A DNA stretch of 64,000 nucleotides, from the NCBI RefSeq assembly GCF_019456655.1, contig NZ_CP080332.1, positions 2,418,001 through 2,482,000 on the forward strand, read 5' to 3'. The stretch is from Mycolicibacterium diernhoferi. Lineage in GTDB: Bacteria > Actinomycetota > Actinomycetes > Mycobacteriales > Mycobacteriaceae. The notes below the pieces were generated by a model. That model searched no databases. It was not told the DNA's origin and saw only the letters and a list, made by a program, of their open reading frames with translations. Of this stretch, positions 27,460 to 53,791 are shown piece by piece; the first letter of the stretch is position 1, and the number at the start of each line of letters is the position of its first letter. The position numbers were made by a program, and so were the translations under genes.

Positions 27460-27486
27460 GCTTTACAAATCTCAGCCGAAATGTCA
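27460..27486 (-). promoter_or_regulatory. shared operator/promoter copy 1 (ALDH operon)
   Basis: CTTTACA (27461-27467), 14 nt, TGTCA (27482-27486) on the plus strand. Read toward ALDH it is CTGACA, 16 nt, TAAAGC, then 8 nt to the ATG at 27451. The 67-bp gap to hyuB is just large enough to hold it. See the copies at 36014, 39969, 47180 and 53761. Confidence 0.7.
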
Positions 27487-27518
27487 GCAGGATGGCAACA
27501 ATTCCCGACCCCGATTCT

Positions 27519-29660
27519 CTACGCCCGTAGAGTGCAGTCCCGCGGCGTGACGAGCTCGAGGTCGCGCAACGGCTGTTCGTCCTCGGCGCGCACCTCGACC
27601 GCGAGCAGCGTGCCGCAGCCCGGGCAGGCGTAACCGTCGGCGCGCAGCCCGGGGTGTAGCCGGATCTTGCGGCCGAGGTCCTCGGCCGCCAACCGGGCGT
27701 GCGCCGCGTAGCCCTTCCAGTTCTCCTCGGCGGGGGCCAGCACGTGCCCGCAATCGCAGGCGTACACCGGTGAGCCCTCGTCCCGCGCGATGACCAGGTG
27801 GTCGCCGATCCTGCGCACACCGTCGGCCGGGTCGACCCGCCGCGCACCGTGCGACTTGTCCTGTTTCCACAGTCGCCGCTGCGCCCGCGCCCGGTCGCGC
27901 TTGGCCGCGGTCGCCGCGACGTCCACCGCACCGTCGACCAACACCACCGCGTAACTTCGCTCGGCGCTCTCCGTGGAGATCCGCCCGGCCGAGACGTCGT
28001 GGGCCACCGCCTCCGGGTCGGCGTCCAGCGCATCGCCCCAGCCGCCGCCGCCGTGGAAGCTCCAGTCCACGACATCGCCTGCCGTCAGGTGTAATTCGCC
28101 CGGGGAGCCGGTGTAGACGACGGGCTCACCACCGCGCAGGATCGTGACCTGGTGCGTGGATCCGGGCATGCCGCCGTGAATGCCCTGGGAGTTGGGCATC
28201 GACATGCTGTGCCCGGCCATCACGCCGTGCATGAAGCCGGTGTCGTGCAGGGTGAACGACGAACTGACCGACACCCCGCCGTGGTTACGGCCTGCGCCGC
28301 CGCCGTCGGTGTTCGCCGACCGGTACAGGTAGAGAAGCGGGAAGACAGACTCCTCGCCCTCGACATTGTTGAACTGCCCGGTGAGGATCTCGTTGGGTCC
28401 GCGGTAGTCCACGCCGTTGCCGGCGACCGTAGCGCCGGCGCCGCCGGCCAGCACCTCGGTCATCGCCCCGCCGAACGGTTCACCGTACTGGTTACGGCCG
28501 GCGATGTGGAAGATCATCAACCCGCCGGTGGTGACCGCCTTTGCCTCCCCGCGCAATTCGTCGTGGGCGCTGACCAGCGTGGAGATCGCGGTGCTCGCGG
28601 TGCTCTGCACGACGCTGGCCGCGCCGGTGGTGGCCGCACCGCACGGTGCGGGATGGCGGGCGTTGACGATGCTGCCCTCCGGCGCGGTGACCTCGATGGC
28701 GCGCATGACGCCGCTGTTCCACGGGATGTCGTGGGCGATCACCGGCAGGATGGCGGCGAACACGCCGCCGCGCAGCCCGGACATGGTGCAGTTGAAGAAG
28801 CCGGGCAGCTGCTCGGCGGTGTTGCCGTAGTCGAATACCAGCCGGTCGCCGTCCTTGCGCAGCTCCACCTCGACCCGGGCCAGCGTCGCCTCGTGCCCGT
28901 TGTGGTCGAAATAGGTTCGGGCCCGGCTGATTCCGTCCGGCAGGGTGAGCAATCGCTCGCGCACCTGCTGCTCGGAACGGTCGAGCATGGTGGACATGAC
29001 GGTGGTGACCACATCGGCGCCGTAGCGCTCGACGAGGCGCAGCAGGCCCTCCTTGGCGTGGTTGTTCGCCGCGATCATCGCCTTGAGGTCCAGGCCCAGA
29101 TTGGCGGGCAACCGGGAGGCGGCCAGGATCAGGTTCCACACGTCCCGGCGGATCCGGCCGCCCTCGATGAGCTTGGTGGGCGGCAGGATCAGGCCCTCCT
29201 GGTACACCTCGCGGGCATCCGGGGACCAGCTCGACGGGGTCATGCCACCGATATCGAGCACGTGGGCGCAGCTGCCCACCCAACCGATGCGCACACCGTC
29301 GTGAAAGACCGGCTCGATCATCGTGACGTCGGGCATGTGCAGCGCGCCCTTGTACGGGTCGTTGGTGATGAACACATCACCCGCCCGGGCGCCCTCGACG
29401 ATTCCGTCGGTGTCGGTGCAGTCGGCGATGATGTGGTTCACCACCGTCTCCATCGATCCGGAGTGAAAGAGGTTGTGCGGCCCCATCGCAACCACCTCAC
29501 CGCTCGCGAGATACACGCCGGTGTTGCAGTCGTTGGCCTCGGTGACCAGCGGTGATCCGGAGACGTTCTTGAGCACCGCGGATTGCTGGGCGACGATGGC
29601 GGTGAGTCGGTTCCGGACGACCTCGTAGGTGATGACGTCGACGTCGGTGCGGGTTGTCAT
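27519..29660 (-). CDS. hydantoinase B/oxoprolinase-family subunit with fused acetone-carboxylase-gamma-like zinc domain
   Basis: A protein of 713 aa. Residues ~1-560 form the HyuB/acetone carboxylase alpha-type domain (THEVVRNRL-like ITYEVVRNRLTAIV, NDPYKGALHMPDV, FFNCTMSGLRGG, GGGAGRNHGG). The last ~110 residues carry two cysteine pairs, CDCG and CPGCG, separated by ENWKGYA...RKIRLHPGL, resembling the small gamma subunit of acetone/acetophenone carboxylases. With the HyuA-type partner this suggests an ATP-dependent carboxylase or an amidohydrolase. It starts 3 nt after hyuA ends. Confidence 0.83.
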   Translation of the reverse strand: MTTRTDVDVITYEVVRNRLTAIVAQQSAVLKNVSGSPLVTEANDCNTGVYLASGEVVAMGPHNLFHSGSMETVVNHIIADCTDTDGIVEGARAGDVFITNDPYKGALHMPDVTMIEPVFHDGVRIGWVGSCAHVLDIGGMTPSSWSPDAREVYQEGLILPPTKLIEGGRIRRDVWNLILAASRLPANLGLDLKAMIAANNHAKEGLLRLVERYGADVVTTVMSTMLDRSEQQVRERLLTLPDGISRARTYFDHNGHEATLARVEVELRKDGDRLVFDYGNTAEQLPGFFNCTMSGLRGGVFAAILPVIAHDIPWNSGVMRAIEVTAPEGSIVNARHPAPCGAATTGAASVVQSTASTAISTLVSAHDELRGEAKAVTTGGLMIFHIAGRNQYGEPFGGAMTEVLAGGAGATVAGNGVDYRGPNEILTGQFNNVEGEESVFPLLYLYRSANTDGGGAGRNHGGVSVSSSFTLHDTGFMHGVMAGHSMSMPNSQGIHGGMPGSTHQVTILRGGEPVVYTGSPGELHLTAGDVVDWSFHGGGGWGDALDADPEAVAHDVSAGRISTESAERSYAVVLVDGAVDVAATAAKRDRARAQRRLWKQDKSHGARRVDPADGVRRIGDHLVIARDEGSPVYACDCGHVLAPAEENWKGYAAHARLAAEDLGRKIRLHPGLRADGYACPGCGTLLAVEVRAEDEQPLRDLELVTPRDCTLRA

Positions 29661-29663
29661 GGG

Positions 29664-31784: not shown

Positions 31785-31832
31785 GGAACGCCTCTTCCCG
31801 ATTCGCGCACAATTTGTCGATCTGTAATGTCA

Positions 31833-31849
31833 CTTTACGTGCTGTAAAG
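31833..31849. promoter_or_regulatory. palindromic operator between hyuA and TetR
   Basis: A perfect inverted repeat CTTTAC-GTGCT-GTAAAG. It lies in the 140-bp gap between divergent hyuA-like and TetR genes, so it probably serves the adjacent TetR. The arm CTTTAC is the same as the arm of the recurring CTTTACA-N14-TGTCA site, but arm spacing differs (5 versus about 14). Confidence 0.65.
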
Positions 31850-31924
31850 CGAAAATTTCTAACGCATGGGGTCGTGCGTTGGCTCACATCCCGGTCGGCG
31901 CGGGCGGCCCGCTAGTCTGGCCCG

Positions 31925-33745: not shown

Positions 33746-33792
33746 GAACACCTTCCGGTCATCGATCCCCGGCTCGGACGGCGCCCAGCCAG

Positions 33793-33814: not shown

Positions 33815-33841
33815 TTCTAGAAACGTATGTCAAAATAGGTT

Positions 33842-34312
33842 ATGGCCGAAGTGATGGACGACACCACGCGCATCCGGGACCTGGCGGTGACGCTGCACGA
33901 TCTGTCCTGGCGGATCTCACGATTCGCGCCGGCCCAGGTCGGGCTCGACCCGCTGCCGGCCTCAGAACTGCTGGTCTTACGTGCGGTGATGGACGATCCG
34001 GGCCGCAGCGTGTCGGAAGTGGCGACCGCGGTGGCGATGCAGCCGAGCAACGTCAGCGCCGCGGTCCGCGGACTGTGCGGCCGAGGGCTGCTGGAGAAAC
34101 GCGTGGATCCCGCCGACCGGCGGGTGTCGTTGCTGCACCCCACCGCGCGGGCGTCCGGTGACCGCACTGCGATCGAGGACGTCGTGGTCCAGACCGTGAC
34201 CGCCGCATTGGCCGAGTTGCCCCGCGAGGCGATCGAGTTGCTGCTGACCGCGACCCCGACGCTGCGGGAGCTGGCTGTCCAGGTGGCCGCGACCCGGGTC
34301 TCGGCGATCTAG
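33842..34312 (+). CDS. MarR-family transcriptional regulator
   Basis: A protein of 156 aa. The winged helix is visible: LVLRAVMDDPGRSVSEVATAVAMQPSNVSAAVRGLCGRGLLEKRVDPADRRVSLLHPT, with recognition helix and the wing D-x-R-R. It probably represses the divergent MFS pump and itself, released by a ligand. Its 3' end overlaps the convergent TetR gene by 4 bp. Confidence 0.9.
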   Translation: MAEVMDDTTRIRDLAVTLHDLSWRISRFAPAQVGLDPLPASELLVLRAVMDDPGRSVSEVATAVAMQPSNVSAAVRGLCGRGLLEKRVDPADRRVSLLHPTARASGDRTAIEDVVVQTVTAALAELPREAIELLLTATPTLRELAVQVAATRVSAI

Positions 34313-34854
34313 CTCTGCTTGAGCCCCACCGCGTGCCGCAGCTGAGCCAGGAACTGGCCCTCGTCGTCGCTACGGACGATGTAGTGCGACACCGCAACCC
34401 GGATCGCGGTGGACGCCTTCACCTGTGCATTGGAACCGCTCAGGAGTTTGAGCAGGCGGGCCCGCATCACCGGTAACACGTGACTCAGCTGGGCGATGAC
34501 CACCTCGGGCTCGATGTCGATGATCCGCACCCCGGAATAGGACTGCTGGTACTCGACGATGAATCGCAATGCCGCATCGAGCTTTTCGGTGCCACGCAGA
34601 CCTGCGGTCGCGGTGCTGATGCCGGTGTCGAACATCTCGCGCTCGTAGTCGCCGAAGGCCCCCAGCAGTTCCTCCTTGGAGGCGAACCACCGGTACAGCG
34701 TCGGCCGGGACACGCCGGCCTGCAACGCCACCTCCGACAGGCTCAACTTGGTCTGCCCGTTGCGTCCGAGCACCTCGGCCGTCGCGGCAAGAATCCGGCG
34801 TCGCGTCGAGGTGTCCTCGGCAACGTCGGAGTGCGCGGACGGCGGCTTGTTCAC
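34309..34854 (-). CDS. TetR-family regulator, paralogue of the one at 39419
   Basis: A protein of 181 aa with GTG start at 34854. The DNA-reading part TKLSLSEVALQAGVSRPTLYRWFASK is almost identical to that of the regulator at 39419, and the whole proteins are about 60% identical by eye, including DIEP and ATAIRVA.SHY.VRSDD. They may recognise the same operator. TACCAT ends 7 nt before the GTG, so leaderless expression is possible, but no CTTTACA-N14-TGTCA site precedes this gene. The APH gene lies 25 nt upstream on the same strand. Confidence 0.9.
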   Translation of the reverse strand: MNKPPSAHSDVAEDTSTRRRILAATAEVLGRNGQTKLSLSEVALQAGVSRPTLYRWFASKEELLGAFGDYEREMFDTGISTATAGLRGTEKLDAALRFIVEYQQSYSGVRIIDIEPEVVIAQLSHVLPVMRARLLKLLSGSNAQVKASTAIRVAVSHYIVRSDDEGQFLAQLRHAVGLKQS

Positions 34855-34879: not shown

Positions 34880-36004
34880 TCACATCGAAGCCTTCAGTGC
34901 ATAAACCGTGTCGAGATCTTCCAGCGCGGCCACCGACCGGGCGAGCCCCTCCAACGCGATGTTCTCGTCCTGCATGCCGCCCATCCCGGCGGTGATCAGA
35001 GCCGCGATGTAGGCGTACAGCGCCCCCTGGCGGAACCGTTGCCAGAGCTGCTCCCGGTCGATCGCGGGACCCCCGGCGGCCCGCAGCTCGGCGCGGTAGA
35101 GGTCGAGCAGATCGTGTTGGGTCTGCACCCGCTCGGCGGTGGTCATGCCGGTGATCAGTGTGTAGGACAGCTCGCGGGACGGGTGGCCTCGGCGCACCGC
35201 CTGCCAGTCCAGCAGTCCCGCTCTTCCGTTGCGGAAGTACACATTTCCCGGATGTGCGTCACCGTGCATGACGGTGTGCGCGCCGCGGTCGATCACGGCG
35301 GCGACCGCGCGGTAGTTGTCGATGATGAACTGGCCCGCGCGCACCGGAATATCGGTTCTGCCCTCCAGCCGGCGGGCCGCGGCGTTGGCCAGCGCGCCGG
35401 TCAACAGCGAGGTCGCGTCCGCGGACGCGGAGTACACCCAGGGGTAGGGGTCCAGTCGCTGCCAGAAGGTCGCGTGCACCCGGGCCAGCAGCTCCACGAT
35501 CAGCGCCGCGCGGTCGGCGTCGAGCGGATGCAGAGTGTCGGGGAATTCACATGAGCCCCCGGCCGCCAGGTCTTCGAGCACGAGCACGAACCGTCCCGTC
35601 ACCGGATCGAAGGTGGCACCGTGGCAGGCCGGCACATCACCCAACTGGCCGGACAGTTCCCGGTAGAACCGCACCTCGGTGTCGGCCAGGCGGCCCAGTT
35701 CCCCCATCAGCCGGGTGGCCACCGTCTCGGCCGGCATCTTGACGAACACCGATGCGGGCACGTCGTCTCCGGTCAGAGCCATGCGGGCGCGTGTGGAGGT
35801 GCCGGCGTCCCCGTCGAGCAACGTGACCGAGGTGACCGTGCGCCCGAGCAGGCCGGACAGATACTCCGGGTCCAGATCGGCGATGTGGCGGGGGACGGCG
35901 CGGGTCCGCCCGAAGATGGCGTCGGTTGCGATACGTTGCAAACCGCGCCCGAGATGCGCGGCCAGACCGAACACCGGGGCGACGCTGCTGACCTGCGGAG
36001 GCAT
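34880..36004 (-). CDS. APH-family (aminoglycoside-phosphotransferase-fold) kinase
   Basis: A protein of 374 aa. The kinase core shows VFVKMPAE (ATP Lys), catalytic loop VMHGDAHPGNVYF and metal-binding DWQ in GLLDWQAVRRGHPSREL. The fold is shared by antibiotic kinases, choline/homoserine kinases and many uncharacterised enzymes in mycobacterial lipid and steroid catabolic clusters. Here a metabolic role (phosphorylating an alcohol) is more likely than resistance. The ATG is 6 nt from a TAAGCT in the shared operator, indicating leaderless expression. Confidence 0.85.
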   Translation of the reverse strand: MPPQVSSVAPVFGLAAHLGRGLQRIATDAIFGRTRAVPRHIADLDPEYLSGLLGRTVTSVTLLDGDAGTSTRARMALTGDDVPASVFVKMPAETVATRLMGELGRLADTEVRFYRELSGQLGDVPACHGATFDPVTGRFVLVLEDLAAGGSCEFPDTLHPLDADRAALIVELLARVHATFWQRLDPYPWVYSASADATSLLTGALANAAARRLEGRTDIPVRAGQFIIDNYRAVAAVIDRGAHTVMHGDAHPGNVYFRNGRAGLLDWQAVRRGHPSRELSYTLITGMTTAERVQTQHDLLDLYRAELRAAGGPAIDREQLWQRFRQGALYAYIAALITAGMGGMQDENIALEGLARSVAALEDLDTVYALKASM

Positions 36005-36011
36005 CGTGCAA

Positions 36012-36040: not shown

Positions 36041-36046
36041 GCTGTG

Positions 36047-37234
36047 ATGGGATTTCCGATGACTGGTCCGATGGACGGCTTCCGAGTGGTCGAACTCGGG
36101 GTCTGGGTGGCGGCGCCGGCGGCGGGGGCGATCCTGGCCGACTGGGGCGCCGACGTCGTCAAGATCGAACCACCCGGTGGTGACCCGGCCCGCTCCTTCG
36201 GCCGGATGATGGGCCTCGACGCGGACCTCGGCAGCGCCTCGAACCCGCCGTTCCAGATGGACAACCGGTCCAAGCGCAGTATCGTGCTCGATCTGGCCGG
36301 CCCGGAGGGGCGGGCGACCGCCGTCGAATTGATCGCCGGCGCAGACGTTTTCCTGACCAACGTCCGCCCGCCCGCGCTGGCCCGGCTGGAGCTGGATTTC
36401 GAGACGGTGGCCACCCGCAACCCGCGATTGGTGTACGGGCTGATCACCGGATACGGCACGGACGGCCCGGACGCCGGGCGCGCCGCCTACGACGTGGCCG
36501 CGTTCTGGGCCCGCGCCGGCATCGCCGACCTGCTGACCCGGCCCGGTGACACCCCGCCGTTTCAACGCGGCGGGATGGGCGACCACTCTGCCGGGATGAC
36601 GCTGGCGGCCGCGGTGTGCGCGGCGCTGCTCGCCCGGACCCGCACCGGCGCAGGGCAATTGGTCACCACCTCGCTCTACCGCCAGGGCGCCTACACGGTG
36701 AGCTTCGACCTCAATACGCTGCTGATGTCCGGTCAGCAGGTGGCCATCGGGCAACGCGAAACCATGGCGAATCCGTGCATGAACAACTACACCGCGGCCG
36801 ACGGTAAGAGGTTCTGGATCGTCGGGCTCGATGTCGCGCGGCACTGGCCGCCGCTGTGCCGGGCGGTGGGTCGCACCGAGTGGCTGACCCGCTACCCGAT
36901 GCCACGAGACCGGTTCACCCATGCCCGGGAGATCATCGCCGAACTCGACACCGTCTTCGCCACCAGGACGCTGGACGAATGGGAACAGGTGTTCGCCGGC
37001 GAACCGGACTTCTTCTGGTCGCCAATCAACTCTCTCGATGACGTGGTGGCCGATGAACAGTTCCACGCCGCCGGTGGCATCGTCTATGTGCCGGAAGGGG
37101 ATTCGAGCACACCGATGGTTGCCAGCCCCGCCGACTTCTCGGCCACACCGTGGCAACCGCGCGGCCCGGCCCCGGAACTCGGCGAGCACACCGAACAGAT
37201 CCTCGCCGAACTGAACGGAACTCAGGAGCGCTGA
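36047..37234 (+). CDS. CoA-transferase family III (CaiB/BaiF)
   Basis: A protein of 395 aa; alternatives are GTG 36044 and ATG 36059. I chose ATG 36047 because it lies 6 nt after a TAAAGC -10-like element. The family start VVELGVWVAAPAAGAILADWGADVVKIEPPGGDPAR and MDNRSKRSIVLDL are clear. The catalytic Asp is expected near residue 185 (GGMGDHSAGMTLA). It moves CoA between carboxylic acids or activates a substrate acid. It overlaps the convergent GH3 gene by 13 bp. Confidence 0.9.
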   Translation: MGFPMTGPMDGFRVVELGVWVAAPAAGAILADWGADVVKIEPPGGDPARSFGRMMGLDADLGSASNPPFQMDNRSKRSIVLDLAGPEGRATAVELIAGADVFLTNVRPPALARLELDFETVATRNPRLVYGLITGYGTDGPDAGRAAYDVAAFWARAGIADLLTRPGDTPPFQRGGMGDHSAGMTLAAAVCAALLARTRTGAGQLVTTSLYRQGAYTVSFDLNTLLMSGQQVAIGQRETMANPCMNNYTAADGKRFWIVGLDVARHWPPLCRAVGRTEWLTRYPMPRDRFTHAREIIAELDTVFATRTLDEWEQVFAGEPDFFWSPINSLDDVVADEQFHAAGGIVYVPEGDSSTPMVASPADFSATPWQPRGPAPELGEHTEQILAELNGTQER

Positions 37235-39968: not shown

Positions 39969-39999
39969 CCTTTACAAATATTCGCCGTACTGTCACGCT
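39969..39999. promoter_or_regulatory. shared operator/promoter copy 3 (TetR-GH3 / P450)
   Basis: CTTTACA (39970-39976), 14 nt, TGTCA (39991-39995), continuing CGCT. Toward TetR: GTGACA, 16 nt, TAAAGG, 7 nt, ATG. Toward the P450: TTTACA, 17 nt, CACGCT, with a 46-nt leader bearing AGGAGGG. Confidence 0.75.
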
Positions 40000-41302: not shown

Positions 41303-41306
41303 CCGC

Positions 41307-41915
41307 TCAGGCCGTCAGTTCGGCGGCCAGTGCCGCGCTGATCGCACGGTAGGCGAGATCGGCTGCGGCCTGCCAGTCATGAGCGGCGTCGACGACCAAG
41401 GCCGCGGTGAAATGTGGGCTCAGATGCGCCGCCACGGTGGTTACCAGGGCGACCGGTGGTGGACCGACACCACCCGCGGTGCGCCACACGGTGGCCGCGA
41501 TGTCGGCCATTGCGCCCCGGAAGTCACTGCGGCGCCGACGTTCTGCGGAAGCGAGATCGGCGGGCAGGTTCCGCCGCGATGCGAGCTCGAAGAAGCCCGG
41601 GCCGATGGTGGAGTTCATCCGGTGCGCGGTGTCGCAGGTGTTCCGCAGCCAGTCGTCGGGATCGCCGGCCGTATAGGTGGGCAGCCCGCGCAGGTAGCCG
41701 GTCATGCCCGCCTCGAATGCGGCGCCGAGGAGTTTCTCGCGGGTTTCGAAGAGCCGGAACAGCGTCCGCCGGCTCACCCCGGTGACCTCGGCCAGCTGAT
41801 CCATGGTGAGGTCCAGGCCGTTCTGCAGCACCGATCGCCGGGCCAGCGTCAGAATGTGGTCGACCGTGGCCTGGCGCTTGGCGCCGGCCACCGTGCCGGA
41901 GGCGGTCTTGGACAC
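41307..41915 (-). CDS. TetR-family regulator divergent from the BVMO
   Basis: A protein of 202 aa from GTG 41915; an in-frame ATG at 41975 is rejected because it would put the palindromic operator inside the gene. The helix-turn-helix is LTMDQLAEVTGVSRRTLFRLFETREKLL, different from the paralogous pair. It likely controls the Baeyer-Villiger monooxygenase through the 41948-41976 operator. It is convergent with the P450 gene. Confidence 0.87.
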   Translation of the reverse strand: MSKTASGTVAGAKRQATVDHILTLARRSVLQNGLDLTMDQLAEVTGVSRRTLFRLFETREKLLGAAFEAGMTGYLRGLPTYTAGDPDDWLRNTCDTAHRMNSTIGPGFFELASRRNLPADLASAERRRRSDFRGAMADIAATVWRTAGGVGPPPVALVTTVAAHLSPHFTAALVVDAAHDWQAAADLAYRAISAALAAELTA

Positions 41916-41946
41916 ACCTCGGAGTCTAACCCGGCCCGCCGCACCG

Positions 41947-41976
41947 TTGACACTCATGAGTGCCATAAGTGACACT
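41947..41976. promoter_or_regulatory. TetR operator and promoter of the BVMO gene
   Basis: TGACACTCATGAGTGCCA (41948-41965) is an 18-bp palindrome with one mismatch and a perfect 12-bp core CACTCATGAGTG. A further AGTGACACT follows at 41968-41976. TTGACA (41947-41952), a consensus -35, is part of it, with GACACT 18 nt downstream as a weak -10. A bound TetR dimer would cover the -35. Confidence 0.78.
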
Positions 41977-42001
41977 TGATCGTGCCGATACGGAGGTTCT
42001 C

Positions 42002-45506: not shown

Positions 45507-46322
45507 CTAACGCTTCTCTCGCCGGCGCACCAGCACCGACTGCTGGATTGCGCCGACCGGGCCCTGCTCGTCGAACAGGGTGCCCAGCGTGGTGCCGATC
45601 CCGTCGGGGCCGTAGTTGGTCTCGGCGCGGATGCCGATCCACTCGCCCTCGGGCACCCGGTGGATGTGCACGACCAGGTCGGTGTTCATGAACGTCCACT
45701 GCCGGATATCCAGCTTGGTGCCGATCCCATTGGCGTCATCGGCGACCGCGAACAACCGTTGCAGTGGTGTCATCGACTCGCCCTTGACCACGTCCACGGT
45801 CGGGCTGAGCCAGGATTCACCCGGACCGTCTGCCAATGGTGTTGTCAACCAACGCCAGTCGATGCTGTGCACATAGTTGCGGTCCCAATCCTTGGCCATG
45901 TCACGGCTGCGGGCCTGGGCCAGTGGGGGCAACGGCGCCGCGGCGGCGTGCAGCACCGCGCTGGTGTCCTGCTGCTGCAACCGCCAGCCGCTGGCCCGGG
46001 CCACCGGCCGCGGGGTGCCGTCCGGGCCGGGGGCCAGCATCTCGGCGGTCACCAACTCGATCTGCTTGCCGGAGCGTTCCCGCCGCGCCCGCACCCACAG
46101 ATCGCCCTCGGCCGGTACCGGACCCAGAAGGTCGATCAGTACCCGGCTGAGCCGGGTGTCCTCGCGCTGCTCGCAGCGTTCCAGGGCGCGGGCCAGCAGC
46201 GCCGACACCGGTGCGCCGTGCTGGATGGACGCCGACCAGGTGCTGCGCACCAGATCGGTGGCTGCGAACTTCTCGCCGACCGGGTCGTCGGCATCGACGA
46301 GTTCGTAATAGGAATCCGACAT
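45507..46322 (-). CDS. acyl-CoA thioesterase-like protein (double hot-dog)
   Basis: A protein of 271 aa from ATG 46322 (MSDSYYELVDADD). It resembles the TesB-like thioesterase superfamily: two hot-dog halves, with SIQHGAPVSALLARALE in the first and GIGTKLDIRQWTFMNTDLVVHIHRVPEGEWIG in the second. It likely hydrolyses or binds a CoA thioester. It lies 11 nt after the SMP-30 gene, so one operon. The specific acyl group is unknown. Confidence 0.8.
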   Translation of the reverse strand: MSDSYYELVDADDPVGEKFAATDLVRSTWSASIQHGAPVSALLARALERCEQREDTRLSRVLIDLLGPVPAEGDLWVRARRERSGKQIELVTAEMLAPGPDGTPRPVARASGWRLQQQDTSAVLHAAAAPLPPLAQARSRDMAKDWDRNYVHSIDWRWLTTPLADGPGESWLSPTVDVVKGESMTPLQRLFAVADDANGIGTKLDIRQWTFMNTDLVVHIHRVPEGEWIGIRAETNYGPDGIGTTLGTLFDEQGPVGAIQQSVLVRRREKR

Positions 46323-46333
46323 GGGGGCTTCTT

Positions 46334-47149
46334 TCAGGGTGCGGGAACGTCGACGCTGACCGCGTCGAGGGTGGACAACCTGGTGCCGATCAACCGCTCG
46401 GGGTAGGCGTCCGTGCTGGACAGCAGGAACAGGGTGCGGCCCTCGGGGCCGCCCAGTGCGCACGCGATCGCGGTACGCCCGGCCATGTCGATCCGGTCCG
46501 TGACGAGGGCTGTCGTCCCCCCGCCGGTGATGCGTTCGAACTGGTGGGCCAGGGTCATCGCCGCCCACACCCCGCCCTCGGCGTCCACCGCCAGCCCGTC
46601 CGGCGGGCCGTCCAGGCCGTCGGCGAACACCCGCCGGTCGTGCAGGGCGCCGGAGTCGGCGACGGTGAACGCGGTCAGCCGTCGTGCGGTGGACTCGGCG
46701 ACGATGAACGTGCCGTCGGGGGAGATGACCATGCCGTTGGGAAAGCTGAGGTCTTCGGCCATCACCGTCGCCCGGCCGTCCGGATCGAGCGCGACGATCA
46801 CCCCACCCTCGCGCGCCTGCGAACCGATGTAGGCACGCCCATGCGCGTCGACGACCATATCGCCGAGGTCGGCCGGCACCAGATCGGTGAGATCGGCCAG
46901 TGCCGAGACGGTTTCACCGTCATAGGCCAGGATCTGGCGCGTCTTGGTGGAGGCGATCAACAGAGTGCCGTCGGGTCGGAAACCCAGGCCCGACGGTGCG
47001 TGGCCGGGTAGCGCCAGGGTGGACATCTCACCCTGCAGCGTGACGGTGTGCACCGCTTCGCCGAGCATGTCGGAGAACCACACCAGCCCCTCGAACCAGC
47101 GCGCGCCCTCGCCGAAGCAGAACCCGTTGGCCAGCGGCTGGACTGTCAT
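46334..47149 (-). CDS. SMP-30/gluconolactonase-like lactonase
   Basis: A protein of 271 aa forming a six-bladed propeller: EGARWFEGLVWFSDM (metal Glu), SGLGFRPDGTLLIAS, LSFPNGMVISPDGTFIVAEST (metal Asn) and DGPPDGLAVDAEGGVWAAM (metal Asp). The family hydrolyses lactones with a divalent metal. In this island it could open a lactone formed by Baeyer-Villiger oxidation; that is inference. Its start is about 30 nt from the shared promoter element, unlike the leaderless neighbours. Confidence 0.9.
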   Translation of the reverse strand: MTVQPLANGFCFGEGARWFEGLVWFSDMLGEAVHTVTLQGEMSTLALPGHAPSGLGFRPDGTLLIASTKTRQILAYDGETVSALADLTDLVPADLGDMVVDAHGRAYIGSQAREGGVIVALDPDGRATVMAEDLSFPNGMVISPDGTFIVAESTARRLTAFTVADSGALHDRRVFADGLDGPPDGLAVDAEGGVWAAMTLAHQFERITGGGTTALVTDRIDMAGRTAIACALGGPEGRTLFLLSSTDAYPERLIGTRLSTLDAVSVDVPAP

Positions 47150-47179: not shown

Positions 47180-47210
47180 CCTTTACAAAACACGCCTCGA
47201 ATGTCACGCT
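47180..47210. promoter_or_regulatory. shared operator/promoter copy 4 (SMP-30 / NIPSNAP-P450 operon)
   Basis: CTTTACA (47181-47187), 14 nt, TGTCA (47202-47206), continuing CGCT. Toward SMP-30: GTGACA, 16 nt, TAAAGG. Toward the plus-strand operon: TTTACA, 17 nt, CACGCT, then 6 nt to GTG 47217, a leaderless arrangement. Confidence 0.75.
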
Positions 47211-47216
47211 CCCTGG

Positions 47217-47921
47217 GTGCGTAAATATCACCGCCACACGTTGTTGTATCTGCACGAGACGATCGAACTGGGTCGCGGCAACAGCGATGAGTTCACCGAG
47301 CGGTTCGACGGGATCTACCACCCCATGATGGAGCAGCTCGGGGCCCGGTTGTTCGCGCTCTGGGAGAGCACGCCCTACAACGGAAACTGGCCGCAGGTCA
47401 CCGTCATCTGGGAGATCGACGCATTCGCCGACTACGCCCGGATCGGCAAGGCCCAGGCTCGCGGCGGTAGCCATGCGACCGCGGCGGCGCAGTGGGCGGC
47501 CTACCTGTCCGGTATCGGCGCTCACGGTGAGGGCCGGATCATGTACGCCGCCCCGCAGAACCGGAACCTGGAGCAACTGCGGGACGAAGGATTCAAGGCC
47601 GAGCTGGTGATCCAGGAGATCATGCAGACCAAACCGGGCAAGCAGGACGACTACATCCGCGAACTGGAGCGGCTCTATGTGCCGTGGTCGGAGAGCACCG
47701 GTAAGCGTTGGCTCGGGTCCTTCACCACCACCTTCCGGTTCAATGAGGTCATCCACTACTGGGCGCTCGACGGCGGCTGGGATTGCTTCGAGAACCACTA
47801 CCCGTCCTGGAAGGACTCGCCCCCCGCCGAGATTGTCACCTGGATGTCGGTCGCTCCCGCGCTGCGCGACGGCTGGGAGGACTCCATCCTCGCCGCGTTG
47901 CCGCCGTCCCCGCTGCAGTAG
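47217..47921 (+). CDS. NIPSNAP/dimeric alpha-beta-barrel-like protein, unknown function
   Basis: A protein of 234 aa with GTG start 6 nt after a -10-like CACGCT. It appears to contain two related halves: each has a strand-helix unit (LLYLHETIELGRGNSDEFTERF and LVIQEIMQTKPGKQDDYIREL) followed by a W-rich strand (NGNWPQVTVIWEID, FRFNEVIHYWALDGG). This suggests a tandem dimeric alpha-beta barrel (ABM/NIPSNAP type). Such small proteins often accompany oxygenases. It leads a six-gene operon with a P450; the family assignment is tentative. Confidence 0.6.
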   Translation: MRKYHRHTLLYLHETIELGRGNSDEFTERFDGIYHPMMEQLGARLFALWESTPYNGNWPQVTVIWEIDAFADYARIGKAQARGGSHATAAAQWAAYLSGIGAHGEGRIMYAAPQNRNLEQLRDEGFKAELVIQEIMQTKPGKQDDYIRELERLYVPWSESTGKRWLGSFTTTFRFNEVIHYWALDGGWDCFENHYPSWKDSPPAEIVTWMSVAPALRDGWEDSILAALPPSPLQ

Positions 47922-47926
47922 GCATC

Positions 47927-49156
47927 ATGGAAAAGACAGTCGCGCAGGACTTCTCATACGACCCATTCGATCCGGCGGTGATGGCCGACCCGCTGCCGTT
48001 CTACCGGGTGCTGCGTGATGAGCATCCGGTGTACTACCTGCCGAAGTGGGACACCTACGCACTGTCCCGGTTCGCCGACATCTGGGAGGCGCTGCGCCTG
48101 ACCGACGGCACCTTCGTGGCATCCGAGGGCACCCTGCCGTCCGCGGCGGTGCTGGAACACCACAACAGCGGGCCGGTCGCCGATCCGCCGCTGCACCCCA
48201 TGCCGTTTCACGCCAACTTCGACTCACCGATCTATGAGAACGTGCGCCGCTGCACCTCGGCGCAGTTCCGGCCGCGTTCGGCGGCCACCCTGGCCGACCG
48301 CATCCGCACGGTGGCCAACGAACGCCTCGACGAGCTGCTGCCGCGCGGCACCTTCGATCTGACCCAGGACTACGGCGGACACGTCGCGGCCACCATGGTG
48401 TGCGAATTCGTGGGCCTGCCGGTCGAACTGGCGCCCGAGGTGCTGGCGACGGTCAACGCCGGCAGCCTCGCACAGCCCGGGGAGGGCGTCGAGGTCGCCA
48501 ATTCGCGGCCCGGCTTCCTGTCGTACCTGACCCCGATCATCGAACGCCGCCGCGCCGAAGGGGCGGACGGCAGTGTGCCGATCGCCGACAGTCTGATCAA
48601 CTTCGTGTTGCCCGACGGGTCCGGCTTCAGCGATACCGAGGCCGCCACCCAGATGCTCGGGGTGTTCATCGGCGGTACCGAGACCGTCCCGAAGATCACC
48701 GCGGCCGGGCTGTGGCAACTCGCCGAACACCCCGATCAGCTCGCCGCGGTGCGCGCCGACCCGGACGCCAATGTGCCGATCGCGCGCGAGGAGATCCTGC
48801 GCTACACCGCACCGGCCCAGTGGTTCGCCCGAACGGTGCGCCGCCCGTACACGATCCACGGCACCACCATCAACCCGGGCCAGCGCATCATCACCCTGCT
48901 GGCCTCGGCGGCCCGCGACGAACGCGAGTACCCGGACCCGGACGCCTTCATCTGGAACCGCCCCATCGAGCGGTTGCTGTCCTTCGGGCACGGCCAGCAC
49001 TTCTGCCTGGGCGTGCACGTCGCCCGCCTGGAGGTGACCATCATGATGCAGGAGTGGTTCAAGCGGGTGGGCGACTACCGGATCATCACCGAGGCCGCCG
49101 CCCGGCCCCCGTCGAGTTTCCAGTGGGGCTGGAACAACGTCCCGGTGGAGGTCTGA
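47927..49156 (+). CDS. cytochrome P450
   Basis: A protein of 409 aa from ATG 47927, 5 nt after the previous stop. It has I-helix GVFIGGTETVPK (acid-Thr pair ET), the ExxR helix (EEILRYTAP) and heme loop FGHGQHFCLGVHVAR with Cys360. It is unrelated in detail to the P450 at 40046, so two oxidations are likely in the pathway. The following ADH, aldolase, SDR and esterase are in one operon with 1-5-nt gaps or overlaps. No ferredoxin in the cluster. Confidence 0.95.
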   Translation: MEKTVAQDFSYDPFDPAVMADPLPFYRVLRDEHPVYYLPKWDTYALSRFADIWEALRLTDGTFVASEGTLPSAAVLEHHNSGPVADPPLHPMPFHANFDSPIYENVRRCTSAQFRPRSAATLADRIRTVANERLDELLPRGTFDLTQDYGGHVAATMVCEFVGLPVELAPEVLATVNAGSLAQPGEGVEVANSRPGFLSYLTPIIERRRAEGADGSVPIADSLINFVLPDGSGFSDTEAATQMLGVFIGGTETVPKITAAGLWQLAEHPDQLAAVRADPDANVPIAREEILRYTAPAQWFARTVRRPYTIHGTTINPGQRIITLLASAARDEREYPDPDAFIWNRPIERLLSFGHGQHFCLGVHVARLEVTIMMQEWFKRVGDYRIITEAAARPPSSFQWGWNNVPVEV

Positions 49157-49157
49157 C

Positions 49158-50129
49158 ATGTGGGGATACCGACTGATCGCGCCGTTCACCTTCGAACGCA
49201 CCGACCGCCCCGTTCCCGATCCGGACACCCTGGCCCCGGGCCAGGTGCTGCTGGGATTCCTGGCCGCCGGCATCTGCGGTAGCGACCTGCCCGGCTTCCG
49301 CGGCACCCAGGGCCGGCTGCCCGGCGACACCGGCTGCTGCGCCGCCGAGATGGACGGATTCCCGATCCACGAGATCGCCGGGGAAGTCCTGGCCAGCGCC
49401 CACGCCGACCATGCGGTGGGGGACCGGGTGGTCGGCTGGGCATCCGGTTTCGACGGACTGCAGGCCCAGGTGGTCGCCGACGGTGACGGATTGCTCTGTT
49501 ATGCACCGGATCTGAGCCCGGCCCACGCCATCGGTCTGCAACCGCTGGCCTGTGTGCTCTACGCCGTGGAACAACTCGGTGACGTGACCGGCAAACGCGT
49601 CGCGGTGATCGGACAGGGCTCCATCGGCCTGTTGTTCACCTATGTGCTCAAGGCCGCCGGCGCCGCCCACGTCACCGGGGTGGATCCCGTCGACCGGGCC
49701 GCCCTGGGGCCGGTCTTCGGGGTCGACGAGGTGGTGCGCGCGACCAGCGACCGGTGGGTGCGGCACCTGACAGAAACGTTCGACATCGTGGTGGAGACCG
49801 TCGGACATCAGGTGGCCACCTTGAACCACGCGCTGGAGGCCGCCGCCTTCGGGGCCACGGTGTTCTACTTCGGGGTCCCCGACGACGACAGCTACCCGAT
49901 CAGCATGCGCACCATGCTGCGTAACAATCTGACCCTGAAATCCGGTGTGACGCTGGAACGCCGGCGGGTGCTGGCCGCCGCCGACGCGTTCGCCCACGCG
50001 CATCCCGACCTGCTTCCCGCCTACCTCACCCACACCTTCGGAGCCGATCAGGCGCAGTCGGCGTTCGAACAGGCCTGTACGCCCGACCCGACCCGCGTCA
50101 AGATAGCGATCGTGGGGGACCCCGCATGA
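49158..50129 (+). CDS. zinc-type medium-chain alcohol dehydrogenase
   Basis: A protein of 323 aa. It has catalytic-zinc Cys in GICGSD (about residue 40), HE in IHEIAGEV, GDRVVGWA and the NAD(P) Rossmann loop GQGSIG. The four-cysteine structural-zinc lobe of classical ADHs is missing, making the protein short for the family. It oxidises an alcohol, possibly that made by the upstream P450. Its end overlaps the aldolase start (ATGA). Confidence 0.85.
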   Translation: MWGYRLIAPFTFERTDRPVPDPDTLAPGQVLLGFLAAGICGSDLPGFRGTQGRLPGDTGCCAAEMDGFPIHEIAGEVLASAHADHAVGDRVVGWASGFDGLQAQVVADGDGLLCYAPDLSPAHAIGLQPLACVLYAVEQLGDVTGKRVAVIGQGSIGLLFTYVLKAAGAAHVTGVDPVDRAALGPVFGVDEVVRATSDRWVRHLTETFDIVVETVGHQVATLNHALEAAAFGATVFYFGVPDDDSYPISMRTMLRNNLTLKSGVTLERRRVLAAADAFAHAHPDLLPAYLTHTFGADQAQSAFEQACTPDPTRVKIAIVGDPA

Positions 50130-50908
50130 GCCGCCTGCAGGACGCCCTGGCCGCCAGCGACCAGATCTGGGGCGGCTGGGTGGTCGGACCCACCATCATC
50201 GGCCCCGAGGAATTCGCCCAGGCCGGTTACGACTACGTCGGATTCGACGTCCAACACGGCTATCTCGACGACGCCGATGTCGCGCTGCTGCTGCGTCGCC
50301 TCGAGCACGTACCGATCGCCACCGCGGTGCGACTGCCCTCGGCCGATCCCGCCCCGATCGGCCGGGTACTCGACGCCGGCGCCGACGCCGTCATCATCGC
50401 CATGGTGGAATCCGCGGAGCAGGCCGCCGCCGCGGTCGCCGCCACCCGCTACGCCCCGGCCGGGGTACGCAGCTTCGGACCGCTGCGGGCGTCGCTGGGC
50501 CACGACACCGTGGCGCTGGAGGCCGAGGCCAGCGTCTACGTGATGATCGAAACCGCCCGTGGGCTGGCCGCGCTCGATGAGATCTGTGCCGTACCCGGCC
50601 TCACCGGCATCTATCTCGGGCCCGCCGACCTGGCGATCTCGATGGGACATCGGCTCTCCGATGCCTGGACCCACCCCGACGTCCGCGCGGCGATGGCCGA
50701 GATCCAGGACACCGCCGCCGCCGCCGGACTGGTCACCGGAATCCATGCCGGGACCGGACAGATCGGAAAGACCTTGGCCGACATGGGGTTCCGGATGATC
50801 ACCCTGGCGTCGGAATCCCAGGCGCTGCGCCGCGGGGCCGCGGCGCACCTGAGCGAGGCAACCGCCGGCACCACCGACCCGGCCGGACAGGACGGATACC
50901 TGCAGTGA
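50126..50908 (+). CDS. HpcH/HpaI-family aldolase
   Basis: A protein of 260 aa with TIM-barrel class II aldolase features: GYDYVGFDVQHGYLDD, MVESAEQA, MIETARGLAALDEI (metal Glu) and GIYLGPADLAISMG (metal Asp). The family cleaves hydroxy-oxo acids, as 4-hydroxy-2-oxoheptanedioate aldolase does, giving pyruvate or a similar 2-oxoacid plus an aldehyde. A ring-cleavage end product could be the substrate. Start and end both overlap neighbours by 4 nt. Confidence 0.88.
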   Translation: MSRLQDALAASDQIWGGWVVGPTIIGPEEFAQAGYDYVGFDVQHGYLDDADVALLLRRLEHVPIATAVRLPSADPAPIGRVLDAGADAVIIAMVESAEQAAAAVAATRYAPAGVRSFGPLRASLGHDTVALEAEASVYVMIETARGLAALDEICAVPGLTGIYLGPADLAISMGHRLSDAWTHPDVRAAMAEIQDTAAAAGLVTGIHAGTGQIGKTLADMGFRMITLASESQALRRGAAAHLSEATAGTTDPAGQDGYLQ

Positions 50909-51633
50909 CGACACAACCGGTGGCGCTGGTGACCGGCGCGGCGCGCGGACAGGGTGCGGCGATCGTCGCGCGACTGCACACCGACGGCTTCCGGGTCGCG
51001 GCCTGCGACCTGCTCCTCGATGAATTACACGACAGCACAGCCGGATACGGCGACGACGTCCTCGCCCTCGAACTCGACGTCACCTCCGAGGCGCAGTGGC
51101 ACGCCGCGGTCGCCGCGACCGTCGAGCGGTTCGGGTCCCTGCGCACCCTGGTGAACAACGCCGGCGTGCTGCACCGGGCCGGGATCGCCGACGAGACCGC
51201 GGCCGGATTCGAGGGCAGCTGGCGGGTGAACTGTCTGGGCCCGTTCCTGGGCATCCAGGCGGCGCTGGAGCACCTGAAGGCCGCCGAGGGCGCCTCGGTC
51301 GTGAACACCTGCAGCACCAGCGCCATCCGGCCATTCCCGAACCACTCGGCCTACGGCTCGTCCAAATGGGCGCTGCGCGGCCTCACCCAGGCCGTCGCCG
51401 CGGAACTGGCCCCGACCGGCATCCGGGTCAACGCGGTCTTCCCGGGCCCGATCGCCACCCCGATGCTCGACGAACGCACCCAGACCCGGCTGGCGCAGAC
51501 CTCCACCGCCGGGCGGCTGGGCAGCCCGGTCGAGGTGGCCGACGCGGTGGCCTTCCTGGTGTCGGCCAACGCCTCCTTCATCACCGGTTCGGAACTGGTG
51601 GTCGACGGCGGCCAGATGCTGCAGATCGGATAG
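50905..51633 (+). CDS. short-chain dehydrogenase/reductase
   Basis: A protein of 242 aa with GTG start overlapping the aldolase stop. It has TGAARGQG cofactor loop, LVNNAGV, Ser in NTCSTSAIRP, YGSSK catalytic pair and terminal GSELVVDGGQM. The pattern AARGQG is common in actinobacterial SDRs that use mycofactocin-linked or non-exchangeable NAD; no insertion was checked. It likely oxidises or reduces a ring alcohol or ketone in the pathway. Confidence 0.9.
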   Translation: MTTQPVALVTGAARGQGAAIVARLHTDGFRVAACDLLLDELHDSTAGYGDDVLALELDVTSEAQWHAAVAATVERFGSLRTLVNNAGVLHRAGIADETAAGFEGSWRVNCLGPFLGIQAALEHLKAAEGASVVNTCSTSAIRPFPNHSAYGSSKWALRGLTQAVAAELAPTGIRVNAVFPGPIATPMLDERTQTRLAQTSTAGRLGSPVEVADAVAFLVSANASFITGSELVVDGGQMLQIG

Positions 51634-51638
51634 CGCGC

Positions 51639-52556
51639 ATGAGTGAGGAGATCGCCGACCGGCTCGATCCCGCCCTGCGTCACCTGGCGGCGGCACGCAC
51701 CGACCTGAGCGCCGAGGCGCTGCCGGCGGTGCGCGCATTTCTGGACCAGCGCCGCGCCGACGGGGCGACCCGCATCGACACCACCGGTGTCACCGTGGAG
51801 GACGCGGTGGCCGGCGGGGACGTCCCGGTCCGCATCTACCGGGGCGGCACCGCGGGCGCCGTCCTGTACTGCCACAGCGGGGCGTTCGTGCTGGGCAACC
51901 TGGACACCGATCACCTGCAGTGCGTCGAACTGGCCCGCCGGGCCGGCGTCATCGTGGTGTCGGTGGACTACCGACTGGCCCCGGAACACGCCTACCCGGC
52001 CGGTCTCGACGATGCCCTGGCCGTCCTGCACTGGACGGCGCAGCACGCGGGAACGTGGGGGATCGCAGCGGACCGGCTGGCGGTCGCGGGCAGCAGCGCC
52101 GGTGGCGCACTGGCGGCCCGGCTGGCCCAGTGCGCCGCCGACGGGGCCGCGCCGCAGATCCGATTCCAGCTCCTGCATCAGCCGGTGCTCGACGACGGGC
52201 TCACCCCGTCCAAGCAGGAATTCCACGACACCCCCGGATTCGACGGTCCCGCAGCGGAACTGATGTGGCGCCACTACCTGGCCGGCGCCGAGCCGGCGGC
52301 GGGCGCGGTGCCCGCCCGGGCCGCCGACCTGAGCGGTCTGGCGCCGGCGTTCATCAGCTGCTCGGAACTCGACCCGCTGCGCGACGAGGCCGTCGACTAC
52401 GCGCTGCGGCTCATGTGGGCGGGTGTGCCGACCGATCTGCACGTGTTCGCCGGCACCTGCCACGGGTTCGATTCGCTGGTGCCGGACTGGGAGATCAGCA
52501 CGCAGCTGTTCGAACTGCAGGGCACGGCGGTGCGCCGAGCCCTGGCGCTCAGCTGA
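51639..52556 (+). CDS. HSL-family esterase/lipase with variant motifs
   Basis: A protein of 305 aa from ATG 51639. The hormone-sensitive-lipase group is recognised by VSVDYRLAPEHAYPAGLDDALA. The usual HGGG oxyanion motif is CHSGAFVLGN and the usual GDSAGG is GSSAGG. Acid and His are in SELDPLRDEAV and GTCHGFDSL. It probably cleaves an ester, possibly a Baeyer-Villiger product. The end overlaps the convergent SRPBCC gene by 8 bp. Confidence 0.88.
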   Translation: MSEEIADRLDPALRHLAAARTDLSAEALPAVRAFLDQRRADGATRIDTTGVTVEDAVAGGDVPVRIYRGGTAGAVLYCHSGAFVLGNLDTDHLQCVELARRAGVIVVSVDYRLAPEHAYPAGLDDALAVLHWTAQHAGTWGIAADRLAVAGSSAGGALAARLAQCAADGAAPQIRFQLLHQPVLDDGLTPSKQEFHDTPGFDGPAAELMWRHYLAGAEPAAGAVPARAADLSGLAPAFISCSELDPLRDEAVDYALRLMWAGVPTDLHVFAGTCHGFDSLVPDWEISTQLFELQGTAVRRALALS

Positions 52557-53061
52557 GCGCGTCGAGTTCGCGGGCGACCGCGGCGTGATAGGCGTCGATG
52601 TGGGATGGGTTGACGATCCGGAAGAACCCGTCACCCATCGGCGCGTCCCGGTAGGCCTCGATGGTCATGGTGCGCTTGAACAGCGTGACACCGGGATCGG
52701 GCCGGCTGAAGTGGTATTCGATGGTCATCCGGCCCTCGAAGCCGCCGTTGCCCTCATAGTCGGTGCCGAGGCGGCCGACCGAACTGAACACCCACATGCG
52801 CGGTCGGGTGGCGATCGCCAGCTGCCAGGTGAACACCCGGTCCTCGGTGGGATGGGCCTCCTGCCAGGTGTCACCCACCCGCAGCGGCAGGGTGTCCCGC
52901 ACGCCGGTGATCCGCGGCCCGCCCGGATAGGTCTTGGCCCAGTTGACCGGATTGGTGACGAAATCGTAGATTTTCTCCGCGGTTTGGGTGAACGCGGTCT
53001 CGGAGCTGGTGGTGACGATGCCCAACGGGGTGCCTTCCTGCACAGGGGTGGATGTCAGCAA
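52549..53061 (-). CDS. SRPBCC-superfamily protein
   Basis: A protein of 170 aa if the TTG at 53061 is the start; GTG 53043 would remove 6 residues and the overlap. The START/Bet v1-like fold is suggested by FTQTAEKIYDFVTNPVNWAKTYPGGPRITG and the C-terminal helix DAYHAAVARELDAL. Such proteins bind hydrophobic ligands or act as cyclases. It follows DUF427 in a two-gene operon under the shared promoter. Confidence 0.72.
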   Translation of the reverse strand: MLTSTPVQEGTPLGIVTTSSETAFTQTAEKIYDFVTNPVNWAKTYPGGPRITGVRDTLPLRVGDTWQEAHPTEDRVFTWQLAIATRPRMWVFSSVGRLGTDYEGNGGFEGRMTIEYHFSRPDPGVTLFKRTMTIEAYRDAPMGDGFFRIVNPSHIDAYHAAVARELDALS

Positions 53062-53753
53062 CCGCAGTCGCCGGTGCCGCCGCCGGGCAGCTCGGCGATC
53101 ATATCCACGCGGGTGTCATCAAAACTCAGGAATCCTTTGATGGCAGCAGATTCCGGAAGCGTATCGGCGTAACTCCACGCCACATCGGCCACCACCGCGC
53201 CGTCGATCACTGCCGACCAGTACGTCGCATGGCCCTTGTAATTGCAGTAGCTGGTGGTCTCGCTGCGGCGCAGCAGATCGGTGCGCACCGCCGCCGGGTC
53301 GACGTACAGCCTTGGCGCCAAGGAGGTCTCGTAGACGATCACGGTGTCGACGGTGTCCACCAGCACGGTGTCGCCGATACCGACCCGCAACCCCCGGCTG
53401 GTCGGCAGACAGTCCACCCGGTGATACGGATTCGGCGGATAGTGGACCAGCAGGCGTCCCTCCTCGAACCAACTGTCGACCGCGTCCCACGGCACCCGCA
53501 CATAGCCGGGCTTCTGTGGGACGGGCTCGCTGGGCAGGCCGCCGACCTCGGCGACGGGGAACGCGTAGCTCAGCGGGTGATCGCGCCGGTGCACCATCAA
53601 CGCAGATTCGGTGTCGATCACGTTGCGGCCGTTGCGGACCGCCCGGATGCGCCGCGGGTGGGGTTCGATGAACACCAGGTCATCGGGGACGGCCGGGAAG
53701 AACTCGCCGGCCGGATCCCGGCTCAGCGGGCCGCGTCCGGCATACAGAGTCAT
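53055..53753 (-). CDS. DUF427 protein
   Basis: A protein of 232 aa. DUF427-type repeats appear twice: IEPHPRRIRAVRNGRNVIDTESALMV and VDTVDTVIVYETSLAPRLYVDPA, with SETTSYCNYKGHATYWSAVID typical of the family. The molecular function is unknown. The ATG is 7 nt from TAAAGC of a CTTTACA-N14-TGTCA element, so leaderless expression is likely. It is coupled with the SRPBCC gene downstream. Confidence 0.85.
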   Translation of the reverse strand: MTLYAGRGPLSRDPAGEFFPAVPDDLVFIEPHPRRIRAVRNGRNVIDTESALMVHRRDHPLSYAFPVAEVGGLPSEPVPQKPGYVRVPWDAVDSWFEEGRLLVHYPPNPYHRVDCLPTSRGLRVGIGDTVLVDTVDTVIVYETSLAPRLYVDPAAVRTDLLRRSETTSYCNYKGHATYWSAVIDGAVVADVAWSYADTLPESAAIKGFLSFDDTRVDMIAELPGGGTGDCGC

Positions 53754-53760
53754 GCGGAGA

Positions 53761-53791
53761 GCTTTACAGATTGTCGAATAAATGTCACGCT
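53761..53791 (-). promoter_or_regulatory. shared operator/promoter copy 5 (DUF427-SRPBCC)
   Basis: CTTTACA (53762-53768), 14 nt, TGTCA (53783-53787), continuing CGCT. Toward DUF427: GTGACA, 16 nt, TAAAGC, 7 nt, ATG 53753. On the other side the plus-strand gene starts further away at 53846. Confidence 0.75.

Follow-up and report, generated by a model that had tools for sequence, protein, structure and literature searches.

KstR and KstR2 of mycobacteria are conserved TetR-type repressors with a large catabolic regulon. Proteins of the TetR family are often repressors, according to the available text of a survey of mycobacterial TetR operators that covers 30 regulators, given by M. tuberculosis gene number, and proposes 11 new motifs (PMC4482099). 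In the accessible part of a report on Escherichia coli, AcrR is described as a TetR-family autorepressor of both RNAs made from the bidirectional promoter PacrA/acrR (PMC12825309). The QacR-type operator, CTATA-n9-TATAG, is presented in the available portion of PMC6018408 as a 28-bp palindrome occupied by two dimers. Here we describe a comparable system in a stretch of 64,000 nucleotides (nt) from Mycolicibacterium diernhoferi (contig NZ_CP080332.1, positions 2,418,001 to 2,482,000; hereafter the window), in which an island of catabolic genes carries repeated copies of an element, TTTACA-N14-TGTMA. Judged from its sequence context, the element is, with a probability of about 0.8, the operator of a TetR subfamily represented here by the paralogs TetR 34309 and TetR 39419, and would define an autoregulated, probably repressed regulon.

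The first-pass annotation of the window had reported four copies of CTTTACA-N14-TGTCA, three of which continue with CGCT, together with a perfect palindrome, TTACA-N14-TGTAA, at 36014. All five were found exactly where reported, and the CGCT continuation was seen in the same three copies (Table 1). The longer pattern occurs in the window only at its four places, all on the plus strand, and did not arise in 100 dinucleotide shuffles, in keeping with the earlier estimate that fewer than one copy per 64 kb should be expected by chance. The relaxed pattern TTACA-N14-TGTNA was matched at five places (six rows), against an expectation of 0.03 from dinucleotide shuffling, and when one mismatch to TTTACA-N14-TGTCA was allowed the palindrome was the sole additional match in the window. 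Elements 2 to 5 all lie in apparently divergent gaps. Element 1 faces the ALDH gene alone; no gene start was found on the opposite side, where the 3' end of a hydantoinase-type gene is located.

Across the single-contig genome (5,998,503 bases), the element is rare and concentrated in the island. The 11-base core TTTACA-N14-TGTCA has six copies, four of them in the island, and the reversed pattern has none. The proposal that copies stand in intergenic gaps before catabolic genes was borne out; their confinement to the island was not, given core copies at 3482148 and 3630908 and a TTACA...TGTCA copy at 3462283. The copy at 3630908 scores 43.6 bits with a matrix built from 116 sites, on par with the island copies, and an acyl-CoA dehydrogenase gene probably starts 10 nt beyond it. 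The copy at 3482148 has a weak score of 24.4 bits and may be a chance match. The third copy, at 3462283, is flanked by a cyclase gene and a P450 gene, the orthologs of which (76-77% and 67-71% identical, respectively) are found inside the island, with a site of the same kind, in the genomes G020 and G049. Because the copy at 3630908 is strong and the copy at 3462283 is kept at orthologs, the regulon seems to extend past the island. The looser pattern TTACA-N14-TGTNA has 14 distinct places genome-wide (20 rows, with six palindromes counted twice; four rows for the reversed control); the majority of the places beyond the island have low scores and could be fortuitous.

In a sample of 148 genomes of the same genus, the core was matched 555 times and the reversed pattern 31 times. 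Twenty regions (L058-L077) from 12 genomes, selected for holding element matches, share much of the gene set and have elements in the same gaps, so that the element is kept at orthologous promoters of related islands. These recurring gaps are those of the ALDH-SnoaL genes, APH/CoA-transferase (with palindromic forms, as at element 2), TetR/P450a, SMP-30/NIPSNAP, the SRPBCC-like genes and the DUF427 genes. At 17 orthologous SMP-30/NIPSNAP gaps, mean column identity reaches 0.89 over the 25-bp core and 0.94 over the next 12 bases, as against 0.45 and 0.54 in the flanks. The spacing of the element is fixed at 14. In 732,550 bases of cluster and TetR regions, a set partly selected by the N14 pattern itself, TTACA-N14-TGTCA occurs 72 times and TTACA-N14-TGTAA 27 times, and every other spacing from 4 to 26 gives 0-4 matches. 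In a fairer set, 55 distinct loci chosen by TetR similarity alone, there are 43 and 33 matches at spacing 14 and one in total at spacings 8-13 and 15-23.

Both proposed regulators have an all-helical TetR fold and the TetR_N helix-turn-helix PF00440 (4.7e-13 for TetR 34309 and 4.9e-15 for TetR 39419). They are 61% identical and have the same recognition helix; the helix-turn-helix segment SRPTLYR is common to both paralogs and nearly invariant among 28 aligned members. A protein of M. adipatum shares 94% identity with TetR 34309, and the closest named relative of TetR 39419 was found in Mycobacterium aurum (92%). A relative of TetR 34309 is present in the related-island regions of all 12 genomes. 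When orthology is defined as a best E-value of 1e-54 or lower (the remaining 25 genomes give 3.5e-11 or weaker), an ortholog of TetR 34309 occurs in 123 of the 148 same-genus genomes. The core is present in 118 of these 123 and in 4 of the 25 without the ortholog (Fisher p 4e-17), and at least two copies are present in 113 of the 123 versus none of the 25. The four core-bearing genomes that lack the ortholog contain a single match apiece, close to the background level (0.2 per genome), and G042, which has the ortholog and no core, carries the palindromic form in its APH/CoA-transferase gap.

Since the TetR genes and their putative targets adjoin each other within the island, a test outside the island is the stronger one. 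All 12 listed homologs with 57% identity or less to TetR 34309 (41-57%) were fetched, and upstream of nine of them a site stands 6-36 nt from where the protein match begins; of these nine, three belong to the same genus (L152-L154), five to one other genus (L145-L149) and one to a further genus (L150). The L150 site scores low with the mycobacterial matrix (10.2) and is an exact TTACA-N14-TGTAA. Two sites that the pattern had picked up beyond the island (L036 and L048) proved, in a survey of the 179 proteins adjoining 116 sites, to have TetR neighbours 54% and 51% identical to TetR 34309, and they begin 9 and 11 nt from these TetR genes. In all, 18 of the 116 sites adjoin a TetR of the subfamily, and the TetR is on the TTTACA side in all 18. 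The exact site is carried by 45 of the 55 TetR-chosen loci. Homologs of TetR 31925, a further TetR of the window used as a control, have the element at none of eight loci (two above 60% identity and six at 30-34%). We infer an autoregulated TetR regulon because the site tracks the subfamily, stands ahead of its diverged homologs and is missing at homologs of TetR 31925. A search for TetR 34309 at order level (1e-25) returned 39 of 348 genomes and 1 of 79 genera, the window's own, and a search at family level in different genomes (1e-30) returned 38 of 301 genomes and 5 of 31 genera.

Several observations pull in the other direction. Inside the island, neighbouring genes may have been gained and lost together, which would also produce co-occurrence, and the sites come from related species, so their counts are not independent. 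Four genomes with the TetR ortholog (G063, G070, G078 and G084) have no site at up to one mismatch in the fetched stretch, G070 being 73% complete. Ten of the 55 TetR-chosen loci lack an exact site; close to the TetR start, four of these (L123, L132, L134 and L136) show a site with one mismatch, and six have no site in the flanks examined. Of seven further TetR 34309 loci, four have a site. The three diverged homologs on one G049 contig (L151) have only a one-mismatch site in two cases, and none within 400 bases upstream in the third (54%).

Two side observations concern the distribution of the pattern. G067 has 18 core copies, compared with the usual 3-7, and at least two subfamily TetR loci (L113 and L114). 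A variant, TTTACAGCCTC(A/G)GTCAT...TGTCA, seen at L041:1501-1525 and L051:1501-1525, recurs in five listed genomes; in L041 and L051 it stands 19 nt ahead of an open reading frame (ORF) of at least 482 codons, and it could be a conserved signal with no relation to the element.

The 116-site matrix reads CTTTACA(A/G)A(T/A)-N9-AA(G)TGTCACGCT. With N14 between them, the half-site centres are about 19.5 bp apart, and the DNA-reading helices of one TetR dimer are given as about 37 Å apart, about one DNA turn, in the available portion of PMC6018408. Because the half-site distance exceeds this single turn per dimer, occupancy by two TetR dimers, as with QacR, is likelier, and an operator for a single dimer was rejected because of the spacing. 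The resemblance to dimeric TetR operators noted in the first-pass annotation is supported for the protein family by the co-occurrence in 148 genomes and the sites at diverged homologs, with the refinement that the site is too long for one ordinary dimer. In one other genus (g23), two N14 pairs overlap at a 9-bp offset in four of five sites (L145, L146, L147 and L149), with a mismatch in one of the two pairs in L146 and L147; the best nested array reads TTTACA-N3-TTTACA-N5-TGTAA-N4-TGTAA. The half-sites nested 9 bp apart lie ahead of the TetR homolog, as at L149:9930-9975 (also L145-L147), and only the sites of other genera (L145-L150) show inner half-sites. This array suggests two bound units and possibly a natural two-dimer site. 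The CGCT extension seems to belong to the promoter and not to the operator.

Gene starts were taken as the nearest start codon passing a crude coding filter. Of the 88 sites with a start found to the side of TTTACA, 43 have it at a distance of 8-12 nt, and on the TGTCA side a start stands at exactly 10 nt in 17 of 91. If these start-codon positions are transcription starts, the rightward promoter would have TTTACA as its -35 box and CACGCT as its -10 box, the leftward promoter would have GTGACA and AAAGnT, and each -10 box would lie at -12 to -7 behind a 17-bp spacer. Of the 116 sites, 104 were retained on core score for a test of the rightward -7 T: it occurs at 77 of the 81 that have a rightward gene and at 3 of the 23 that have none, the 23 being mostly one orthologous group and not independent. 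In element 4, a GTG at 47217 stands 10 nt past the end of TGTCA, and a GTG occupies exactly this position in all 17 orthologous NIPSNAP gaps. An open frame runs from it in only three (the window, L009 and L074), the others meeting a stop within 24 codons. A GTG kept where no start codon is needed is what would be expected at a transcription start, and in the window lineage the gene start seems to have moved onto this position. In 14 of the 17 gaps (L011, L013, L015, L017, L058, L060, L063, L064, L066, L072, L077, L113, L115 and L143), and not in the window, L009 or L074, TGTCAA occurs exactly 17 nt past TGTCA and is possibly a second binding unit or leader element.

In the accessible text of PMC3898074, 73% of primary starts of M. 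tuberculosis have a TANNNT -10 box without a conserved -35 box, and about a quarter of the genes are leaderless. A conserved -35-like box is not expected of such a housekeeping promoter, and therefore fits an operator. In the palindromic site at 36014, TAAGCT stands 6 nt ahead of the APH ATG and matches TANNNT. With start sites as predicted here, the presumed -10 boxes would be separate, each adjoining the opposite -35 box, whereas a bidirectional promoter with a shared -10 element would use one symmetric -10 both ways. Two results count against the promoter part: the -10 boxes of the asymmetric sites (AAAGnT and CACGCT) do not match TANNNT, and the leftward -7 T gives a weak test (50 of 77 versus 10 of 27, p 0.014). 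Tentatively, and at somewhat less than even odds, we propose that the 28 bp form an interlocked promoter-operator for both directions. Polymerase would use this unit in either orientation through the same bases that form the TetR half-sites, often with leaderless mRNAs, and a genome would employ it several times (up to 18).

The same boxes could instead be the -35 and -10 of an alternative sigma factor promoter that involves no repressor, and TTTACA at -35 and the conserved -7 T would agree with this, provided that transcription starts at the nearby start codons. We consider it very unlikely. Sigma spacers are usually looser than a fixed N14, and in the TetR-chosen loci the spacing is fixed at 14. 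Furthermore, the core stays in left-only and right-only sites, whereas the -10-like CGCT tracks a rightward gene; the site follows the TetR subfamily into unrelated contexts; and no sigma domain was present among the 30 window proteins scanned.

If the element is an operator, its regulator might still be another protein, encoded elsewhere or in the window as MarR 33842 or TetR 31925, with the TetR pair a bystander target, since co-occurrence alone does not separate regulator from target. Neither window candidate is conserved together with the element, and both were rejected: TetR 31925 has a relative above 60% identity in only 1 of the 59 other genomes searched and its eight homolog loci lack the element, and no gene called in L058-L077 has MarR 33842 as its best match (1e-10). 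Sites ahead of diverged homologs of TetR 34309, in other genera and in unrelated contexts, would be hard to explain by an unlinked regulator, which leaves this explanation highly improbable. It is also unlikely, on the evidence at hand, that the same TetR acts at the same site as an activator, or as an activator one way and a repressor the other. The sites are asymmetric and constant in orientation relative to the TetR gene (18/18), and the poor match of the asymmetric -10 boxes to TANNNT means that basal promoters may be weak; the operator, however, spans the presumed -35 to -10 in both directions, a position typical of repression.

Under the preferred reading, in which the element is the operator of the TetR subfamily, TetR would bind TTTACA-N14-TGTMA, most likely as two dimers, across the core promoters of divergent catabolic operons. 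Without inducer, TetR on the element would block polymerase in both directions. The TetR genes would be self-repressed through element 3 ahead of TetR 39419 and element 2 ahead of the APH-TetR 34309 genes. It is hypothesized that TetR is released by an intermediate of the pathway, which might be a CoA thioester or isoprenoid ketone, and that the whole island is thereby turned on; the closest solved folds include the fatty acyl-CoA regulators FadR and FasR and also EthR2, with no clear winner. A less certain part is that the same 28 bp would serve as two opposed promoters, often yielding leaderless mRNAs. The sites, their spacing, their conservation and their linkage to the subfamily are observations; binding, repression, dimer number, ligand and start sites are read from sequence.

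Table 1. Copies of the element and genes of the proposed regulon, in window coordinates
Feature	Position	Strand	Remark
Element 1, CTTTACA-N14-TGTCA	27461..27486	+	TTTACA 10 nt from ALDH ATG (minus strand); CGCT absent
Element 2, perfect palindrome TTACA-N14-TGTAA	36014..36037		between APH-like gene (minus) and CoA-transferase gene (plus)
Element 3, CTTTACA-N14-TGTCACGCT	39970..39999	+	TTTACA 9 nt from TetR 39419 ATG (minus); upstream of P450a (plus)
Element 4, CTTTACA-N14-TGTCACGCT	47181..47210	+	between SMP-30 gene (minus) and NIPSNAP-P450 operon (plus)
Element 5, CTTTACA-N14-TGTCACGCT	53762..53791	+	TTTACA 9 nt from DUF427 gene ATG (minus)
TetR 34309, proposed regulator	34309..34854	-	probably one operon with APH under element 2
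TetR 39419, paralog of TetR 34309	39419..39961	-	directly under element 3
ALDH and SnoaL-type genes, proposed target operon	25280..27451	-	
APH/EcKL-type phosphotransferase, proposed target	34880..36004	-	
CoA-transferase family III, proposed target	36044..37234	+	start perhaps ATG 36047
Glycoside hydrolase family 3 behind TetR 39419, proposed target	37222..39426	-	
P450a, ORF 41379 (without Pfam match) and FMO-like gene, proposed target operon	40046..43933	+	
SMP-30 and acyl-CoA thioesterase, proposed target operon	45507..47149	-	
NIPSNAP (weak Pfam match), P450b, ADH, HpcH aldolase, SDR and alpha/beta hydrolase, proposed target operon	47217..52556	+	
DUF427 gene and 170-aa gene without Pfam match, proposed target operon	52549..53753	-	

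Among the proposed targets, P450a has CYP268A2, a designed CYP125 ancestor and CYP124 as its nearest solved relatives. Seven relatives (L058, L060, L062, L065, L067, L072 and L143) have a Baeyer-Villiger monooxygenase-like FMO gene between the SDR and alpha/beta hydrolase genes; its product is about 32-34% identical to the window FMO and nearest to steroid monooxygenase. The gene is absent from this position (50905-52556) in the window and in L069, L074 and L077. From the likeness of P450a and of the Baeyer-Villiger-type enzyme, our guess is that the island substrate is branched isoprenoid or steroid-like.

The ALDH gene of the window is separated from TetR 34309 by hydantoinase A/B genes, TetR 31925, an MFS gene and a MarR gene (27519-34312). 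The two are close together in L059, L060, L063, L064, L066 and L071, and because several relatives have this arrangement, the intervening segment looks like an insertion into the island. The hydantoinase genes (27519-31784) were rejected as regulon members, as no element lies ahead of them and relatives keep TetR 34309 near ALDH without them. A DUF222/HNH endonuclease gene (44144-45445) lies between the FMO gene and the thioesterase operon, as it does in L074. A plasmid origin was rejected: the plasmid collection searched holds no relative of P450b above 60% identity and no match to TetR 34309 that covers 80% of the query.

A precise operator and a multi-operon regulon are thereby proposed for a TetR subfamily that 123 of the 148 same-genus genomes possess. 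Orphan enzymes, including two P450s, SMP-30, NIPSNAP, the aldolase and the CoA-transferase, are brought together in a single pathway that is probably inducible. In addition, the fixed element offers a natural series for studying how a repressor and two opposed polymerases share 28 bp, and it bears on the extent to which leaderless genes of mycobacteria couple the start of translation to the position of the promoter. If the interlocked unit is real, a single repressor would, with fixed geometry, govern several divergent operons in both directions. No description of the element or regulon was found in a literature search whose coverage excluded most subscription papers, and the system appears to be a new autoregulated TetR regulon with an unusual promoter layout.

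Like the system described here, KstR and KstR2 pair a conserved repressor with many catabolic targets; their operator is shorter and different from the window element, and the NCBIfam KstR model gives the window TetR pair 26.2 and 27.2 bits against a cut-off of 280. The mycobacterial survey, in its available text, likewise places palindromic motifs in divergent gaps beside TetR genes; these are given as logos, and overlap with the window element is possible (PMC4482099). The QacR-type operator in the available portion of PMC6018408 shares with the window element a long interrupted palindrome and a TetR fold, whereas the inner gap here is 14 and not 9, the putative targets are enzymes and not an efflux pump, and the number of dimers is predicted from sequence. 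The closest working parallel is AcrR at PacrA/acrR, which represses both divergent RNAs as is proposed here. In the accessible part of PMC12825309, that promoter has an inherent -10 symmetry, with starts on either side of or within the shared -10 element; in the window element, by contrast, each -10 box would adjoin the opposite -35 box, the presumed starts are about 45 bp apart, and the module is repeated at several operons.

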